Notes under the pieces: generated by a model
Database searches by the model: none
What the model was told of the DNA's origin: nothing
What the model saw: the letters and a program-made list of their open reading frames with translations, nothing else
Virus record (IMG/VR): IMGVR_UViG_3300028176_000020
Coordinates: 1-24,017 of that record
Length of the DNA stretch: 24,017 nt
Strand: one strand, 5' to 3'
From: a virus
Made by a program: the position numbers and the translations under genes
Shown here: one piece after another, positions 471 to 23,963 of the stretch
Position numbering within the stretch: position 1 is the stretch's first letter
How the letters are laid out: every line of letters starts with the position of its first letter

Positions 471-863
471 ATGAAAACGGAAATCGAGATTAAATCTATT
501 TGGGGTTCAGTATTGTTTTCACATGAAAAAGAAGACAACACAATTAAAGATACTTTGCAGGGAGCCTATTTGCGGGGAGCCAATTTGCGGGAAGCCGATT
601 TGCAGGGAGCCAATTTGCGGGGAGCCAATTTGCAGGGAGCCAATTTGGATATGTGTGCTTATTCTTTATCATGTGCCAGTCTAAAATTCAAGTCAGATTT
701 GCGAATCAGAACACAAATGGCATTTCATTTTGCTTCACTAATTGCAAATGCCGATCAGGAAAACGTAACAGACGTAGAAAGAAAAATCTATTCTACAATG
801 CTTGAGTATGTCAATCGGTTTCATCGGACAGACGTTGCCAAACTTCCAACATTAGAGCCATAA
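471..863 (+). CDS. Pentapeptide-repeat protein
   Basis: The 130-residue product has a run of A(N/D)LxxA-type pentapeptides at about residues 28-60 (LQGAYLRGANLREADLQGAN and so on), which would fold into a short right-handed beta-helix. An N-terminal beta-like segment (IEIKSIWGSVLFSHE) and a C-terminal helical region flank it. Short pentapeptide-repeat proteins of this layout occur in Bacteroidota phages, and their function is unknown. The ATG follows the A-rich leader GAAACGAAA seen before other genes here. It is the first gene after operator copy 1 and so probably early. The repeat is too short to resemble the gyrase-protecting Qnr proteins. Confidence 0.8.
   Translation: MKTEIEIKSIWGSVLFSHEKEDNTIKDTLQGAYLRGANLREADLQGANLRGANLQGANLDMCAYSLSCASLKFKSDLRIRTQMAFHFASLIANADQENVTDVERKIYSTMLEYVNRFHRTDVAKLPTLEP
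555..644 (+). repeat. Six tandem 15-bp repeats encoding pentapeptides
   Basis: Six head-to-tail copies of TTGCRGGGAGCCAAT with few differences start at 555, 570, 585, 600, 615 and 630. The two at 600 and 630 are identical. The repeat period equals one pentapeptide, so copy-number change would keep the reading frame. The near identity suggests recent expansion or ongoing slippage. Confidence 0.9.
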
Positions 864-1532: not shown

Positions 1533-1769
1533 ATGACAGCACTATTAGCAGCACTATTCTTTTTTATCCTATCGTTATCCTGTTACGTTGTCTATCAGCT
1601 TCAGGTTGAAAAAAACAAGCGTAAACAGCACGAAAGCGAAACCAGGAAGCTACTCAGGAACCAAGACCCTGACGACATTAGAGACCGTAAGATGATCGAA
1701 GAGGTCAGAAAGTACAAATGGAATCATGAATTTGATGAAACAAAGTACAGCGATGAAGTCTACCGGTAA
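1533..1769 (+). CDS. Small membrane-anchored charged protein
   Basis: The ATG at 1533 is chosen over a TTG at 1503, because 1503 lies inside the previous gene and 1533 follows its stop by 4 bases. The 78-residue product has a membrane helix at about residues 3-24 (ALLAALFFFILSLSCYVVYQ), then a long, highly charged, probably helical region (EKNKRKQHESETRKLL, then RDRKMIEEVRKYKW). The arrangement resembles spanin-like or anchor proteins, but no lipobox or partner gene is seen. Its TAA stop lies in the first attC-like site, so it ends exactly where the cassette region begins. Confidence 0.6.
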   Translation: MTALLAALFFFILSLSCYVVYQLQVEKNKRKQHESETRKLLRNQDPDDIRDRKMIEEVRKYKWNHEFDETKYSDEVYR

Positions 1770-1895
1770 CGTATTTGTGCTATAAGCAGGGCGGGATAAG
1801 TACCAACGTGTATACCGAATTTTATTTAACTTATAAACACCTGAAATGATCGAAAACAAAATACTGCCCAACTTGACTGATGGCACGTGTTATAT
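1761..1895 (+). repeat. attC-like site before the dcm cassette
   Basis: The left half starts around GGTAACGTATTTGTGC and contains CTATAAGCAGGGCGGG. The right half runs from about TGCCCAACTTGACTGATGG to the core GTTATAT (1889-1895). The two halves are only loosely complementary. The right core is firm because it matches the end of the dcm unit. The site supplies the stop of the upstream gene and the first 16 codons of the dcm frame. A matching start for a cassette ending here was not found upstream. Confidence 0.5.
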
Positions 1896-2793
1896 GCCGC
1901 TTTCCCTTCGGCACGGCTCATTATTTTCCGGTATTGGTGGCTTTGATCTGGCCGCCAAATGGATGGGATGGGAAAACGTATTTCATTGCGAATGGAACGA
2001 ATTTGGACAGAAAATATTAAAACAACATTTTCCAAAATCAATTAGTTATGGAGATATTACAAAAACAGACTTCACTATTCACAGAGGAAACATTGACATC
2101 CTTACGGGTGGATTTCCCTGCCAGCCATATAGCGTTGCTGGAAAACGGAAGGGAAAGGAGGACGAACGCCATTTATGGCCTGAAATGCTTAGAACAATAC
2201 GGGAGATTTACCCAACATACATTGTGGGGGAAAACGTTCCTGGAATTATTAGTTGGGATGGAGGGTTGGTATTCAACGAAGTGCAAACTGACTTGGAAAA
2301 TGAAGGGTACGAAATACTCCCGTTTTTACTTCCAGCTTGCGGCAAAAATGCACCCCATAAAAGAGAACGAGTTTGGTTTGTGGCCTACGCCAGTGGTAAG
2401 CGATGCAACGAACGGAGCGATGATAGGGAAAAACGACACGTTCAAACAAACTGCGGGATTTCCACGGAAGATAAACCAGAACGGAACGGACGGATCGGTA
2501 GGTTTAGCGAGATTAGTTCAATTGATACCGACACCAACAACCAGGGATTACAAAGGAGCGAGAAGCAAGGAAGCATTAAAAAAAGCAGGTCGAAACCAAA
2601 CGAACAGCCTACCGGATTATTTTGCTCAGACTGGGAAAAGTTCCCAACTCAATCCCCTATTTGTGGAGGAAATGATGGGATTCCCGATAGGGTGGACAGA
2701 ATTGAAGCACTTGGAAACGCAATAGTTCCACAAATCGCACTCCAAATTTTCAAAGCGATTGCGATTCACGAAGCCTCTTTAAGTGGCATATAA
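1846..2793 (+). CDS. dcm: DNA (cytosine-5) methyltransferase, Dcm-type
   Basis: C5-cytosine methyltransferases transfer methyl from S-adenosylmethionine to cytosine in a target site; in phages this usually protects DNA from host restriction. Motifs are visible in order: I (LFSGIGGFD, residues 26-34), IV with the catalytic Cys in GGFPCQPYS (88-96), VI (ENV, 129-131), VIII (RERVWFVA, 173-180) and X (ALGNAIVPQIALQIF, 288-302). Residues 181-280, where target recognition lies, are hydrophilic and low in hydrophobics, and coincide with a second gene in another frame. Homology probably begins near residue 21. Residues 1-16 come from the upstream attC-like site, so Met17 (1894) may be the cassette's own start. 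I keep 1846 for its A-rich upstream context. Confidence 0.9.
   Translation: MIENKILPNLTDGTCYMPLSLRHGSLFSGIGGFDLAAKWMGWENVFHCEWNEFGQKILKQHFPKSISYGDITKTDFTIHRGNIDILTGGFPCQPYSVAGKRKGKEDERHLWPEMLRTIREIYPTYIVGENVPGIISWDGGLVFNEVQTDLENEGYEILPFLLPACGKNAPHKRERVWFVAYASGKRCNERSDDREKRHVQTNCGISTEDKPERNGRIGRFSEISSIDTDTNNQGLQRSEKQGSIKKSRSKPNEQPTGLFCSDWEKFPTQSPICGGNDGIPDRVDRIEALGNAIVPQIALQIFKAIAIHEASLSGI
2048..2725 (+). CDS. Protein overprinted within dcm in the +1 frame
   Basis: A 225-codon ORF lies entirely inside dcm, shifted +1. It reads like a real protein: an internal near-repeat (LWPTPVVSDATNGA at 111-124, PTPTTRDYKGA at 161-171), a Trp/Tyr-rich middle (EGWYSTKCKLTWKMKGTKYS), and a C-terminal block (LNPLFVEEMMGFPIGWTELK, 201-220). 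From memory, phage proteins with LWPTP..SD and NP.FVE.MMGFP.GWT blocks occur repeatedly where phage dcm genes are found, which would make this a conserved overlapping pair. Its function is unknown. In the dcm frame the same stretch has the poorly structured target-recognition region, as expected if constraint is shared. The alternative is a chance shadow of a constrained dcm. Confidence 0.65.
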   Translation: MEILQKQTSLFTEETLTSLRVDFPASHIALLENGRERRTNAIYGLKCLEQYGRFTQHTLWGKTFLELLVGMEGWYSTKCKLTWKMKGTKYSRFYFQLAAKMHPIKENEFGLWPTPVVSDATNGAMIGKNDTFKQTAGFPRKINQNGTDGSVGLARLVQLIPTPTTRDYKGARSKEALKKAGRNQTNSLPDYFAQTGKSSQLNPLFVEEMMGFPIGWTELKHLETQ

Positions 2794-2916
2794 CGTTGAA
2801 AATATGGGCTGATTGCCCAACCAAAAACAATAGAAAATTTAATTTAAAACACAAAGATTATGAAACTTACAAACTTAATTAAAAGAACGGCAATTTGCCT
2901 ATATTTAGTGTTAACG
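2781..2916 (+). repeat. attC-like site between the dcm and lipoprotein cassettes
   Basis: The left half TAACGTTGAAAATATGGGC...GATTGCCC (2791-2817) is imperfectly complementary to the right half GGCAATTTGCCTATATTTAG ending in core GTTAACG (2910-2916). The first 14 bases (2781-2794) are the complement of the dcm unit's start, with one mismatch. The dcm stop codon lies in the left core, and the lipoprotein's start codon and first 17 codons lie in the loop and right arm. Confidence 0.65.
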
Positions 2917-3132
2917 GCTGGGCTTTACTCATGTACAACCCAAACAAACGAAAACACTAAAAACGAACCGGAATATAGATGGCAGATAAAATGCTATTAC
3001 GATAATAATTTTAGTTGGACGACTGTAAAATGTGATAGCTTTCAAATGGTGAGCAAAACTGAAGCTTATGTTTGGGTTGATGGCAGAAAGACAAAAATAA
3101 TTGCAGAGGAACTTAGACCATTGCACTATTAG
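2860..3132 (+). CDS. Small lipoprotein, unknown function
   Basis: The 90-residue protein has a classical lipoprotein signal: Lys/Arg head (KLTNLIKR), hydrophobic core (AICLYLVLTAGL) and a lipobox with the acylated Cys at 25 (LYSC). A Thr/Asn/Glu-rich linker and a small beta-rich domain with two further Cys follow (WQIKCYYDN, WTTVKCDSF). It is probably anchored in the host outer membrane facing the periplasm. I do not recognise the domain. The cassette boundary (2910/2911) falls inside the signal peptide, so residues 1-17 come from the upstream attC-like site and the mature protein from the cassette. A phage-borne lipoprotein could alter the host surface or act in exclusion, but that is a guess. 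Confidence 0.75.
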   Translation: MKLTNLIKRTAICLYLVLTAGLYSCTTQTNENTKNEPEYRWQIKCYYDNNFSWTTVKCDSFQMVSKTEAYVWVDGRKTKIIAEELRPLHY

Positions 3133-3268
3133 CCTTGCCGTTAACGTTGAGTATATGGCAAGTTGGGGATTAAAATGTACTGACCTATCAACTTGCATAA
3201 AAGTAAATTAAAGGTACAAATATAACAAGTTGGAACAGCACGCCAATTTGCTATAAACATTGTTAGGT
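3131..3268 (+). repeat. attC-like site between the lipoprotein cassette and cassette 3
   Basis: The left core CGTTAAC (3139-3145) is followed by GTTGAGTATATGGCAAGTTGG. The right arm CCAATTTGCTATAAACATT runs into core GTTAGGT (3262-3268), a perfect GTTRRRY. The arms pair imperfectly (GCAAGTTGG at 3158-3166 with CCAATTTGC at 3243-3251). A long AT-rich loop between them holds further CAAGTTG/CAACTTG copies. The length of about 130 bp is within the usual attC range. Confidence 0.7.
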
Positions 3269-3285
3269 GCAGTAATTTATTAATT

Positions 3286-3663
3286 ATGAGCTATAATATT
3301 GATACTTGGAAAACAAAAAAATTGGAAAACTTAACAATTCCATTAAAAGCATTTTTTGAACACGAAAGAACTGATTGGCATCCAAAACAACCTGAAATTG
3401 TAAATGCTGAAACTATGGAAATTGAAATGAAGTGTGGTTGCGAACAACTAATTAAAGGCACTTTGAAAAATGGTATTATTCACGTAACAGAATTAGAAAT
3501 GTATGGTGAAGGTTCAGGAACTTTCAAAGGTTGGATATTAGATGAAGCACTTAAACAAAGTAAAGGCGAATTAGAAGCTGTTTTAGTTTGGGAAGGTGGT
3601 GATTCAATTACACGAATAAAAGTAAAAGATGGTGTAATCGAAGAAACGGACGTTGAATTGTAG
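3286..3663 (+). CDS. Cassette-borne soluble protein, unknown function
   Basis: A 125-residue acidic protein with no signal peptide or membrane segment. It opens MSYNIDTWKTKKLENL, has a possible metal or structural pair in KCGCEQLIKGTLKNG (Cys49, Cys51 region), a Gly-rich turn (YGEGSGTFKGWILDEALKQS) and an alternating strand pattern in the last 30 residues (LEAVLVWEGGDSITRIKVKD). I have an impression of similar hypothetical proteins in Bacteroidota but know no function. The ATG lies 24 bases into unit 3, with TAATTTATTAATT before it. It is the only gene in its cassette, as usual for integron cassettes. Confidence 0.75.
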   Translation: MSYNIDTWKTKKLENLTIPLKAFFEHERTDWHPKQPEIVNAETMEIEMKCGCEQLIKGTLKNGIIHVTELEMYGEGSGTFKGWILDEALKQSKGELEAVLVWEGGDSITRIKVKDGVIEETDVEL

Positions 3664-3672
3664 CACGTCCGT

Positions 3673-3748
3673 ATTATTGCACCTAACGGTTTGCAGCTAA
3701 CCGATAGTTTTTGCTTTTCGCAAAAATTTTGGTTAGGTGCTGTTAGCA
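3673..3748 (+). repeat. attC-like site between cassettes 3 and 4, strong hairpin
   Basis: This is the clearest site of the set. ACCTAAC (3681-3687) fits RYYYAAC, and the next unit begins at GTTAGCA (3742-3748). Between them, GCAGCTAACC...AGTTTTTGC (3693-3714) pairs with GCAAAAATTTTGGTTAGGTGC read in complement (3720-3740) around a TTTTC loop, with unpaired bases on one strand as typical of attC. The total length is about 70 bp. Confidence 0.75.
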
Positions 3749-3811
3749 GTAGTGCCTTTATCGAATTAAAATAAAACTTCTGGGCGGAGTTATAAAACCC
3801 ACATAAATAAA

Positions 3812-4552
3812 ATGAATAATTCACAAAAAGAACCAATGGTGAAGCAAAGTAACCAAGTTCACACAACAACAGATTACTTTCTATTTAAACTAATAGAAGG
3901 CAACAGAAACAAGAACCTGTTACACATCAACAGGCTGAAAAAATCAATGTCAGATAACTATTTATTTACGGTTATTATCGTGAACGAAAAGTATGAGATT
4001 ATTGATGGGCAACACCGATTTGATGTGATACAGGAACTGAAATTGCCATTACATTACATTGTTTGCAAAGGTTATGGATTAAATGAAGTTCATATTTTAA
4101 ACCAAAACTCAAAGACTTGGAATGCTGATGATTATTTAACTGGGTATTGCAATCTTGGGTATGATGATTATTTAAAATACGCGTCATTCAAAGAAAGGTA
4201 TAATTTAGGACACAACGAAACAATGTCATTGTTAGCGGGAATACCTAACAAAATTGATATTGATGTTTTTTACAGAGGTGATTTTAAAGTAAAGTCTTTA
4301 AAAAATGCTGAAGATATTATTGAAAAAATAATGATGATTGAGCCTTATTACAACGCTGTTAGAAGAAGGTCTTTCATTTATACGATGATGTCTTTATTTA
4401 AAAACGAAAACTTTGAATTTACCGAGTTCTTGCAAAAGTTAAAGATACAACCTACTGCGTTGCAGGATTGCACAAATGTTACTAATTACAAAGTGTTGAT
4501 TGAAGAAATCTACAATTATCGCAGACGTGAAAAGGTTAATCTTAGATACTAA
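3812..4552 (+). CDS. ParB-like (DGQHR-motif) protein
   Basis: The 246-residue protein has an N-terminal ParB/sulfiredoxin-type domain: a strand (LFTVIIVNEKYEIIDGQHRFDVIQ) with the signature IIDGQHRFD at residues 63-71, then a helical remainder rich in Tyr/Phe/Lys. Related phage and mobile-element proteins bind nucleotide and DNA in partition, regulation or nicking, but I see no partner ParA and cannot choose among these. It is the sole cargo of cassette 4, with unit-specific inverted repeats on both sides (3742-3756 and 4590-4604). Met9 (3836) is a possible later start. MNNSQ is kept because AAATAAA directly precedes it. Confidence 0.75.
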   Translation: MNNSQKEPMVKQSNQVHTTTDYFLFKLIEGNRNKNLLHINRLKKSMSDNYLFTVIIVNEKYEIIDGQHRFDVIQELKLPLHYIVCKGYGLNEVHILNQNSKTWNADDYLTGYCNLGYDDYLKYASFKERYNLGHNETMSLLAGIPNKIDIDVFYRGDFKVKSLKNAEDIIEKIMMIEPYYNAVRRRSFIYTMMSLFKNENFEFTEFLQKLKIQPTALQDCTNVTNYKVLIEEIYNYRRREKVNLRY

Positions 4553-4589
4553 AATTATGGTGGTTTGTCAGTCGGCTTGTGGGTCGGCT

Positions 4590-4620
4590 GGCATTACTGC
4601 TAACTCGTTGCTAAACGCAC
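4590..4620 (+). repeat. Truncated attC-like site at the end of the cassette run
   Basis: GGCATTACTGCTAAC (4590-4604) is the complement, with one mismatch, of the start of unit 4, so it is the left core of that unit's site. Only TCGTTGCTAAACGCAC follows before the phage gene at 4637. There is no room for the second arm unless GTTGCTA (4607-4613) is a right core, so most of the site seems deleted or the boundary is cryptic. G-rich repeats (TCGGCTTGTGGGTCGGCTGG) precede it. Confidence 0.5.
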
Positions 4621-4636
4621 TTTTTGTATTACAATC

Positions 4637-16828: not shown

Positions 16829-16869
16829 AAAAATAGCATCAAAAAACGTTCTTTATCCCGTAAAATGAT

Positions 16870-16877
16870 TACATTTG
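16870..16877 (+). promoter_or_regulatory. Promoter -7 box for the GIY-YIG gene
   Basis: TACATTTG fits TAnnTTTG, 21 bases before the ATG at 16899. The -33 region (CGTTCTTTATCC) is weak. A private promoter is typical of a free-standing homing endonuclease. Confidence 0.5.
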
Positions 16878-16898
16878 CATAATAAAATAGCAAATATT

Positions 16899-17393
16899 AT
16901 GGGATATAAAGTTTATTATTTATCAGATCCGAGAATTGGAAAGCCAAGATATTACGGCGTTACTAAAAGCGAACTAAGTAAAAGACTTCAAAATCATTTG
17001 TTAAATATTGAATATGGAGCTAAACGACCTAAAATAGATTGGATAAATGAATTAAAAAAAGACGGATTAAAACCTGATATTACTCTTATTATCGAATATG
17101 AAGACAGAACAACAGCACTCAATCTTGAAACAAGTCTTATATCAAACGGGAAAGATCTTTTAAATTTAGTGGCAGGAAACGGTTACAGAAATTTAGAATA
17201 CAATGATTTATATTTAAACAATCTGGAACTTTCAAAAAAAAGGAGAGCTACAAGGGAACTAAAATATGGAAAATATTCAAGGTCGAAAGAAAAACCGCAA
17301 AAATTAAAACGTAAAAGAATATTGACTGCACAAGAAAGAGAAAGAGCAATAAATAATTTAAGACCATATTGGTTTAAAAAGAAAAACAGTTAG
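16899..17393 (+). CDS. GIY-YIG homing-type endonuclease
   Basis: The 164-residue protein has an N-terminal GIY-YIG nuclease domain: VYY (5-7) and YYG (18-20) as the two signature strands, Arg29 in SKRLQNHLL, and Glu77 in ALNLETSLIS as the metal-binding Glu. A basic C-terminal tail (about 115-164: KKRRATREL, then KEKPQKLKRKRIL) probably binds DNA. The ATG at 16899 is preferred over TTG 16875, which is in the promoter. It separates the portal from the Mu F-like head gene, two genes usually adjacent, so it is probably a mobile insertion. Confidence 0.85.
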   Translation: MGYKVYYLSDPRIGKPRYYGVTKSELSKRLQNHLLNIEYGAKRPKIDWINELKKDGLKPDITLIIEYEDRTTALNLETSLISNGKDLLNLVAGNGYRNLEYNDLYLNNLELSKKRRATRELKYGKYSRSKEKPQKLKRKRILTAQERERAINNLRPYWFKKKNS

Positions 17394-17398
17394 TAATT

Positions 17399-17632
17399 AT
17401 GGAAAACGAAGAACTTAAAAAATTAGTCGTTCAAATATTGGAAGAAAAAACAGCCATAGATTACGGATGTGAAGGTGGAGATGATGATTATGTAGACATT
17501 TCATTTTCTGATTTATTAGACGTGATAGATCGGGTTGTAAAAAACGAGAATATAGTTTCATGTATGTTCTGTGAGAAGAAAGTGGATTATAAGACTGGAA
17601 TTTTTATATGTTTTGAATGTTCTAATCTATGA
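17399..17632 (+). CDS. Small acidic protein with a Cys-pair zinc site
   Basis: The 77-residue protein starts with a helix (ENEELKKLVVQILEEKTA) and an acidic GCEGGDDDYVDISFSDLLDV, then ends with CMFCEKKV...GIFICFECSNL, two Cys-x-x-Cys pairs as in a zinc ribbon. It begins 5 bases after the endonuclease and ends in ATGA overlap with the head protein gene. No known family. It may have come with the inserted endonuclease, or be a small native head-module protein. Confidence 0.6.
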   Translation: MENEELKKLVVQILEEKTAIDYGCEGGDDDYVDISFSDLLDVIDRVVKNENIVSCMFCEKKVDYKTGIFICFECSNL

Positions 17633-22815: not shown

Positions 22816-23244
22816 ATGACAAACGTAGGTACTTTGGTGATGTTGAAACTTGGAACCATCCTGGTAGTTGGTGAATCTTCAACATCGTTCAAATCAGCTC
22901 AAAACATGATCGAAGTGAGCAATAAAGGACTTGGTAATGTTGCTTCGTTCAAGGCCGGACGCATCACACAAACCATGTCAGTTAGTTCTTTGGCCTCTAC
23001 CGATCCATCCGCTTCAACATATGGCTATAAAGCTGCTTTAGACGCTCAGGCAACTTTGGCAGTAGTGGCTTTCACGTTGACAGAATACGGCGCAGCCAAC
23101 GGAACTACACCAGCAACGGGAGCAATCAAGCTATCCGGCAACTGTTTGATCAGTAACGTATCGGTCGAGTTTCCAGATAACGACAAACTAACCTTTTCGC
23201 TCGATCTTCAGATTACTGACGGAACAACAGTAGGCACGAACTAA
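22816..23244 (+). CDS. Tail tube-type protein, copy 1 (TP901-1-like)
   Basis: The 142-residue protein has features of major tail tube proteins: VGESSTSFKSAQNMIEVSNK near the start, KAGRITQTMSVSSLASTDPS and CLISNVSVEFPDNDKLTFSL at the end, all matched in the next gene. The middle (residues about 68-105) carries TYGYKAALDAQATLAVVAFT. Tube subunits stack as hexamers along the tail. The C-terminus and the start of copy 2 share a base (TAATG). Confidence 0.8.
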   Translation: MTNVGTLVMLKLGTILVVGESSTSFKSAQNMIEVSNKGLGNVASFKAGRITQTMSVSSLASTDPSASTYGYKAALDAQATLAVVAFTLTEYGAANGTTPATGAIKLSGNCLISNVSVEFPDNDKLTFSLDLQITDGTTVGTN

Positions 23245-23963
23245 TGACAAACGTCGGAACCCTTGTCTGGCTGAAGTTAGAAGCCAGACAGCGGGAGATT
23301 GTCACACTAACTGGAACAAGTGGCACGGCTAATGTCGGTGCGGTCGGAGGGTTGACTAAGTTAGCGACCTTTACAACAGACCTGACAACATCGGCTACTA
23401 ACTTTGTCACTTCGCACGCCGCAGCTTATTTGGCTGTTGGGGTAGTAGTTACTTGTTCAGGTGCAAAGCTATGTTTTAAACCTACTTTGCTGAATACGGC
23501 AATAACCGCACCAACGATTACCAATGCAAGCGGAAACCTCGCGGGCACTGTTGCACACGTGAACGCTAATAACGGCGTATTGCAGTGCATCGGCGAAACG
23601 TCTACTTCACTGAAGTCAGCACAAACGATGATAGAAGTAAGTAGTAAGATCAACCAAAACAAAGCATCGTTCAAAGCCGGGCGGATTACGCGCACTTTGT
23701 CTGTTTCTTCCATCGCTTCAACCGATACCGCTACAACTGAATACGGTCATGAGGATGCACTTGCAGCACAAGTTCAACTTGTTCCGATTGACTTTACGTT
23801 GACTGAATACGATGTTAACGGTGCAGTTGTTCAAGGTGCTATCATCATATCAGGTAGTACACTTTTGTCAAACGTGGCTTTGGAAAATCCAGACAACGAC
23901 AAAACAACCTTTTCGCTTGATTTGCAGATTTCAGATACAATGACCGTAGATGTAAACCCATGA
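23244..23963 (+). CDS. Tail tube-type protein, copy 2, with an inserted beta domain
   Basis: The 239-residue paralogue of the preceding protein shares MTNVGTLVxLKL at the start, GETSTSLKSAQTMIEVSSKI, FKAGRITRTLSVSSIASTDT and ENPDNDKTTFSLDLQISD. Between residues about 13 and 111 it has an extra domain: EIVTLTGTSGTANVGAVGGL, TFTTDLTTSATNFVTSHAAA, then ITNASGNLAGTVAHVNANNG. That looks like a beta-sandwich of a kind seen in other Bacteroidota phage structural proteins. It could be a decorated tube subunit on the outer tail surface. Its stop overlaps the next start. Confidence 0.8.
   Translation: MTNVGTLVWLKLEARQREIVTLTGTSGTANVGAVGGLTKLATFTTDLTTSATNFVTSHAAAYLAVGVVVTCSGAKLCFKPTLLNTAITAPTITNASGNLAGTVAHVNANNGVLQCIGETSTSLKSAQTMIEVSSKINQNKASFKAGRITRTLSVSSIASTDTATTEYGHEDALAAQVQLVPIDFTLTEYDVNGAVVQGAIIISGSTLLSNVALENPDNDKTTFSLDLQISDTMTVDVNP

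Follow-up and report, generated by a model that had tools for sequence, protein, structure and literature searches.

Integrons, whether of classes 1–3 or of the sedentary chromosomal kind, are IntI/attI/attC systems whose cassettes are bounded by GTT and AAC and whose hairpin site is formed from both cassette ends together with a spacer; the array grows from a fixed attI end, and the gene of the tyrosine recombinase, which starts beside attI, is directed away from the array. The attC-type palindromic hairpin is about 57–141 nt in size. In canonical integrons attC lies 3′ of its gene, the genes point away from attI and the recombinase, IntI, carries an integron-specific insert. Phage-borne cassette clusters are already on record: Qi et al. 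(2023; PMC9892861) reported integrons or clusters of attC sites lacking integron integrases (CALINs) in 21 phages, with IntI1-driven recombination of phage attC sites, and these attC-type clusters sit in virulent phages with methyltransferase cargo, some of the sites being called 'divergent'. Here an array of this general kind is described in a stretch of 24,017 bases (the window), which is one whole virus record (IMG/VR IMGVR_UViG_3300028176_000020) from a tailed phage encoding RecT, YqaJ, a terminase and a portal protein. The source phage is of a type found in Bacteroidota and is a virus of Bacteroidota bacteria.

Positions 1771–4604 of the window form a row of four cassettes of one gene each. 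Every cassette has a matched pair of 15-nt ends of its own, and palindromic spacers separate the units. Comparison with related loci indicates that this is very probably a phage-borne, integron-like array of modules, each a hairpin spacer plus a gene, which would be moved by a tyrosine recombinase related to IntI but outside that family. The parts of the array are as follows.

1767–1770, + strand: TAAC, the core that bounds the array distally, within the stop codon of the phage gene 1503–1769; GTTA on the reverse strand.
1771–1888, + strand: spacer S1, 118 nt, attC-like hairpin of cassette 1; composite fold z = −3.1; the canonical attC sense is the reverse complement.
1889–2794, + strand: unit 1, C5-cytosine DNA methyltransferase (PF00145, E = 4.5e-45); cores 1889–1903 and 2780–2794, 13/15.
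2795–2909, + strand: spacer S2, 115 nt, in which the open reading frame (ORF) of unit 2 has its start codon and signal peptide; composite fold z = −3.7.
2910–3145, + strand: unit 2, lipoprotein-like ORF of 90 aa (2860–3132) starting within S2; cores 2910–2924 and 3131–3145, 13/15.
3146–3261, + strand: spacer S3, 116 nt; composite fold z = −3.4.
3262–3687, + strand: unit 3, ORF of 125 aa (3286–3663), no family; cores 3262–3276 and 3673–3687, 14/15.
3688–3741, + strand: spacer S4, 54 nt, of the short type GGTTTGCAGCTA...TAGGTGCT; composite fold z = −9.2.
3742–4604, + strand: unit 4, ParB-like protein (3812–4552, phrog_12305); cores 3742–3756 and 4590–4604, 14/15.
4605–4621, + strand: attI-like proximal end TCGTTGCTAAACGCACT, fixed phage flank, the same in the sister phage L001 behind another cassette.

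A first-pass annotation, made from the letters of the window alone, had proposed four consecutive one-gene units with complementary cores of their own that differ between units, and all four are present. Its pattern of core matches was right, with the count for the first unit slightly off (13/14 rather than 13/15), and of its span of 1761–4604 the right end is exact while the array proper starts only at 1771, after the TAAC. Its reading of the units as cassettes of the integron type, carried by a tailed phage and limited by G^TT and AAC sites, is also upheld; its view that such arrays are unusual in phages has to be set against the clusters already published. The methyltransferase gene of unit 1 probably starts at 1894 and stops at 2793, with SLFSGIGGFD right after the alternative start M at 1894. 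Near-identical copies of S4 precede other genes in many viral contigs, and the attI-like end of the related locus L057, TCCTTGCTAACCGCAC, resembles that of the window. An Rfam scan of the window gave zero matches.

The limits of the array can be read from two sister phages. From 4598 onward, L001 and the window are 99.6% identical, but up to the junction of TAAC with TCGTTGC L001 carries a different cassette; leftward of this junction the two share only the four bases TAAC. L267 is 99.6% identical over 554–1774, with divergence and another cassette right after the TAAC ending at 1770. The records of both sister phages derive from a single metagenome; compared piecewise, they overlap the window on both of its sides. 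Since L001 breaks at the right TAAC and L267 at the left one, the stretch differing between sister phages is 1771–4604, with single-tetranucleotide boundaries. Vertical inheritance of the genes with the same spacers, which the first-pass annotation had raised as the contrary case, is thus not what is found, as the cassettes differ between sister phages whose flanks are nearly identical.

The matched ends follow a strict rule. In 30 first-order Markov shuffles of the window, end pairs matching at 13/15 or better arose at a mean of 0.57 and none reached 14/15, so that four back-to-back units, two at 14/15 and two at 13/15, are not due to chance. The recurrent mismatch is a G in the start core against an A in the complement of the end core at position 11; among end pairs with one mismatch, collected from related viral loci totalling 785 kb, G/A at this position was seen in nine distinct pairs and any other mismatch in only a handful. 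Over all fetched loci, 206 distinct end pairs, a class chosen solely by identity over the first 9 core bases, follow the position-11 rule, and their match at positions 12–15 is 0.92, 0.92, 0.90 and 0.73, falling to background from position 16. Because complementarity reaches position 15 and then stops, the ends of a cassette are 15 nt long, and a G/T wobble at position 11 is obligatory in them. The same rules (15-nt ends, position-11 wobble, spacers of about 40–122 nt and cassettes made of a spacer plus GTT-gene-AAC) hold over more than 150 viral and bacterial loci, and the system is present in at least about 70 viral contigs. The short-spacer motif had at least 80 viral matches versus 19 in 257 Gb of genomes, of which a minority are real. 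Matches of the motif in Clostridia, Bacillales, Paraglaciecola and other bacteria were set aside as chance, the AAC flank and matching unit ends being missing.

The extent of one cassette follows from comparisons of the same unit in different surroundings. Fifteen pairs kept the upstream spacer while the downstream sequence changed, and none showed the reverse; in most of the informative pairs, the TAAC that opens the spacer is where exact identity stops on the upstream side, to within a few bases, with some pairs breaking at a point mutation inside the spacer and a few reaching further through shared neighbours. The ParB unit 4 recurs in L024, ending at the same AAC, and a related ParB unit in L088–L092, L128 and L159 ends at the same AAC and is then followed by four different sequences. 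The canonical layout, with the spacer travelling 3′ of its gene, was abandoned after L001, L024 and this ParB cluster, and with it the assignment of each spacer to the upstream gene. As the spacer is kept with the gene downstream of it, the cassette is spacer-GTT-gene-AAC. With the spacer on the 5′ side of its gene, the reverse strand therefore reads G^TT-(antisense gene)-AAC-(attC-like spacer)-G^TT, which is integron geometry, the attC-like hairpin lying distal to attI, but with the gene inverted. The longest ORF faces the attI-like proximal end in 157 of 163 distinct cassettes, whereas the genes of the M16-3 phage integron and of a Shewanella plasmid integron face away from attI. As in unit 2 of the window, the ORF begins inside the spacer and crosses the GTT in 22 of 66 cassettes.

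Each window spacer together with the cores of its own unit was predicted to fold as one DNA hairpin on the + (gene-sense) strand. The predicted fold of this strand was the more stable one in all four cassettes. Among 114 distinct spacers, the arms pair with their own partner rather than with those of other spacers (mean 13.6 versus 6.5), and G/T wobbles number 160 on the gene-sense strand against 35 on the other. These asymmetries suggest indirectly that the gene-sense strand would be the one folding into the recombined hairpin; its counterpart in canonical integrons is the bottom strand of attC. A simpler score, of the spacer palindrome against the nearest AAC, was too noisy, as random GTT sites scored too, and the test of own against other arms was used instead.

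The window carries no candidate recombinase, as the first-pass annotation had noted for an integrase: no ORF resembling an HxxRH tyrosine recombinase was found in the window, L001, L267 or L270, and PF00589 gave zero matches in the record of the window and in the sister records. Such genes do adjoin related arrays. A tyrosine recombinase lies directly behind the array in L105 (gene at 3108–3941) and L132, and a scan with an array-adjacent phage recombinase as query gave 30 loci, of which 26 were inspected. In 12 of these a complete unit ends 53–68 bp before the recombinase start, and 11 more have a like junction of TAAC with T at that distance (23/26 in total). Identical recombinases accompany different or reordered arrays (L203/206/208, L201/205/207, L202/227–229 and L204), and cassettes common to L203 and L205 stand in different order. 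The family also occurs in Bacteroidota genomes, with G057 showing the same layout of cassette array and then recombinase. Capture of bacterial cassettes as a one-off event, put forward in the first-pass annotation, does not fit a system so widely present in viral contigs and often adjoined by a phage-encoded recombinase.

These recombinases, about 240–290 aa in the phages, also differ from the IntI family. The integron integrase model TIGR02249 scores 132–172 bits against a cut-off of 265, its match being split in two stretches because the IntI-specific catalytic-domain insert, as an alignment shows, is absent. The best NCBIfam match is NF040815 (XerA/integron integrase-like) at about 165–206 bits, below its cut-off of 220; in this match and in size the proteins resemble XerC/XerD/XerA. 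In a tree, IntI, the phage and Bacteroidota array recombinases (96/94) and Xer (100/100) form separate groups; Bacteroidota Xer thus stands apart, and the present family is located at cassette arrays. The array recombinases group beside IntI, but the tree was rooted at the midpoint, so that this position is valid for the present sampling only.

Taken together, the system shares with canonical integrons its single-gene G^TT...AAC cassettes with R-box complementarity within the cassette, cassette exchange that breaks exactly at the core, and folding, arm-complementary sites of attC size (spacers of about 40–122 nt plus cores), and that it works like an integron is well supported. It nevertheless lies outside the canonical family, since gene orientation and the IntI-specific insert were both tested and differ: here the cargo faces attI, the hairpin lies on the 5′ side of its gene, the 15-nt cores have an invariant G/T wobble and the recombinase is without the insert. 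The element of the window array also has no integrase gene of its own. In the canonical phage integron M16-3 the likely true cassettes match over 7–12 nt, without the wobble rule. Polaribacter phage P12002L, a case of Qi et al. in which one site was recombined by IntI1 in their assay (PMC9892861), has the present architecture of inverted-gene cassette arrays. Both of its cassette runs (L200) end in TAAC followed by AACGGATAAAACAAGTTTTACC, at 29237–29240 and near 37262, and it is a phage with two copies of the attI-like site. Their account does not contain an inverted-gene class, the 15-nt core, a phage-encoded non-IntI recombinase or array exchange between sister phages. Nothing on an inverted or Bacteroidota phage integron beyond Qi et al. 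was found in the literature searched, which left preprints outside and covered subscription papers sparsely, and an inverted, non-IntI class appears to be undescribed.

Several observations weigh against an integron-like system with this recombinase. Every close comparison rests on metagenomic contigs. PF00589 was present in 8 of 50 other array-bearing virus records, with no match in 42/50 and 18/20 such records, most of which are fragments. In two Bacteroidota loci the units are convergent (3′ to 3′) with the recombinase and not co-directional. The attI-like TCGTTGC... of the window is unlike the recombinase-adjacent type TATTATATG..., and as these sequences differ, the pairing of the window array with the recombinase family is not proven. 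The convergent units (L258 18318–18972, L259 1687–3945) are like the inverted-integrase arrangement of some chromosomal integrons.

Other explanations of the array were weighed on the same evidence. Ordinary bacterial integron cassettes, with canonical IntI and attC 3′ of the gene, could have been captured once by the phage; the GTT/AAC cores, spacers within the attC size range and the recombination of phage attC sites by IntI1 (PMC9892861) all agree with this. It is nevertheless improbable, as the spacer goes with the downstream gene without exception in the 15 informative pairs, nearly all genes face attI where those of M16-3 and the Shewanella plasmid integron do not, the wobble cores are longer than the ends in M16-3, the companion recombinases lack the IntI insert and the short-spacer motif is found mainly in viruses. 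Shuffling by homologous recombination between conserved spacers, by functions of the RecT/YqaJ type and without a site-specific recombinase, would draw on proteins that the phage does encode, and some spacers are near-identical between cassettes. Breakpoints would then be spread through the spacers, but the window and L001 share only TAAC leftward of their junction, and at the opposite side the divergence of L267 also sets in at this tetranucleotide, so that this explanation is given very little probability. The imperfect 15-bp inverted ends could also mark independent transposon-like units with their own or a shared transposase, which is the least probable explanation of all. Unlike the terminal inverted repeats of insertion sequences and transposons, the ends vary between units yet pair within each; no transposase family was among the Pfam matches of 95 cargo proteins, the spacer moves with the unit on one of its sides, and units insert without exception either at a single fixed end or at other junctions between cassettes.

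For the preferred integron-like array, a mechanism may be proposed. On the antisense strand of the genes, the recombinase would cut at G^TT (AA^C next to every TAAC), and it would join cassettes at the fixed attI-like end, 4604/4605 in the window; the enzyme acting would presumably be the one adjoining related arrays. In the window phage it may act in trans, with a co-infecting phage or the host as its source. The metagenome of L001 and L267 also contains the phage G072, which encodes an array and a recombinase, so that supply from a co-infecting phage is the simplest view. Genes would be expressed by read-through of phage + strand transcription, which would select the inverted orientation. 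These loci probably represent a distinct integron class of Bacteroidota phages, rarer in Bacteroidota genomes, with inverted cargo, 15-nt wobble ends and a recombinase family that lacks the insert but groups beside IntI, sharing a pool of anti-restriction cassettes with the recombinase in cis or in trans.

The cargo agrees with such a pool. Of the 95 proteins scanned, about 15 were DNA methylases (N6/N4, C5 and Dam), and others were Mom, a TET-associated glycosyltransferase and PAPS reductases; the cargo likely protects the phage from host restriction. Wholly inside the C5 methyltransferase gene, at 2048–2725 (+) in another frame, lies an ORF of 225 aa whose translation is 38–50% identical at the same position in other such genes (L041, L024, L216, L051). 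It matches 78 phage records (Paenibacillus, Lactobacillus and E. coli phages), some labelled methyltransferase, and is a candidate for a widespread overprinted gene. The stretch 3764–4554 of the window, with the ParB-like gene of cassette 4, is 90% identical in DNA to L013 4956–5737, where there are no cassette ends; the similarity begins inside unit 4, 5′ of the ATG, and a recent cassette birth is possible. An ordinary phage gene of about 90% identity, also without cassette ends, occurs in L014.

Some further differences between sister phages and features of the window should also be noted. A pentapeptide-repeat gene near the array encodes 130 aa in the window (471–863) and 215 aa in L267 (12249–12896), a variation in repeat number between sister phages otherwise 98–99.6% identical. 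Between portal and head gene, about 800 bp (16830–17628) are replaced by about 55 bp in a sister phage, probably reflecting a recent insertion; this region holds two ORFs, one of 172 aa that resembles a GIY-YIG homing endonuclease and one of 77 aa. At 22816–23244 and 23244–23963 lie two tandem paralogous tail-type proteins that have repeats and the N-terminus MTNVGTLV in common.

The results suggest that integron-style gene collecting also takes place inside phages, with a recombinase lineage of its own and with DNA-modification genes, likely for counter-defence, as its stock. They bear on the role of the IntI insert, which the array recombinase family seems to do without, and on the strand and direction that the hairpin chemistry permits. 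They also bear on the origin of new cassettes, a question that can be addressed because an ordinary phage version of the cassette 4 ParB gene occurs without cassette ends. Integron surveys that require IntI or the canonical gene orientation would miss the inverted class.

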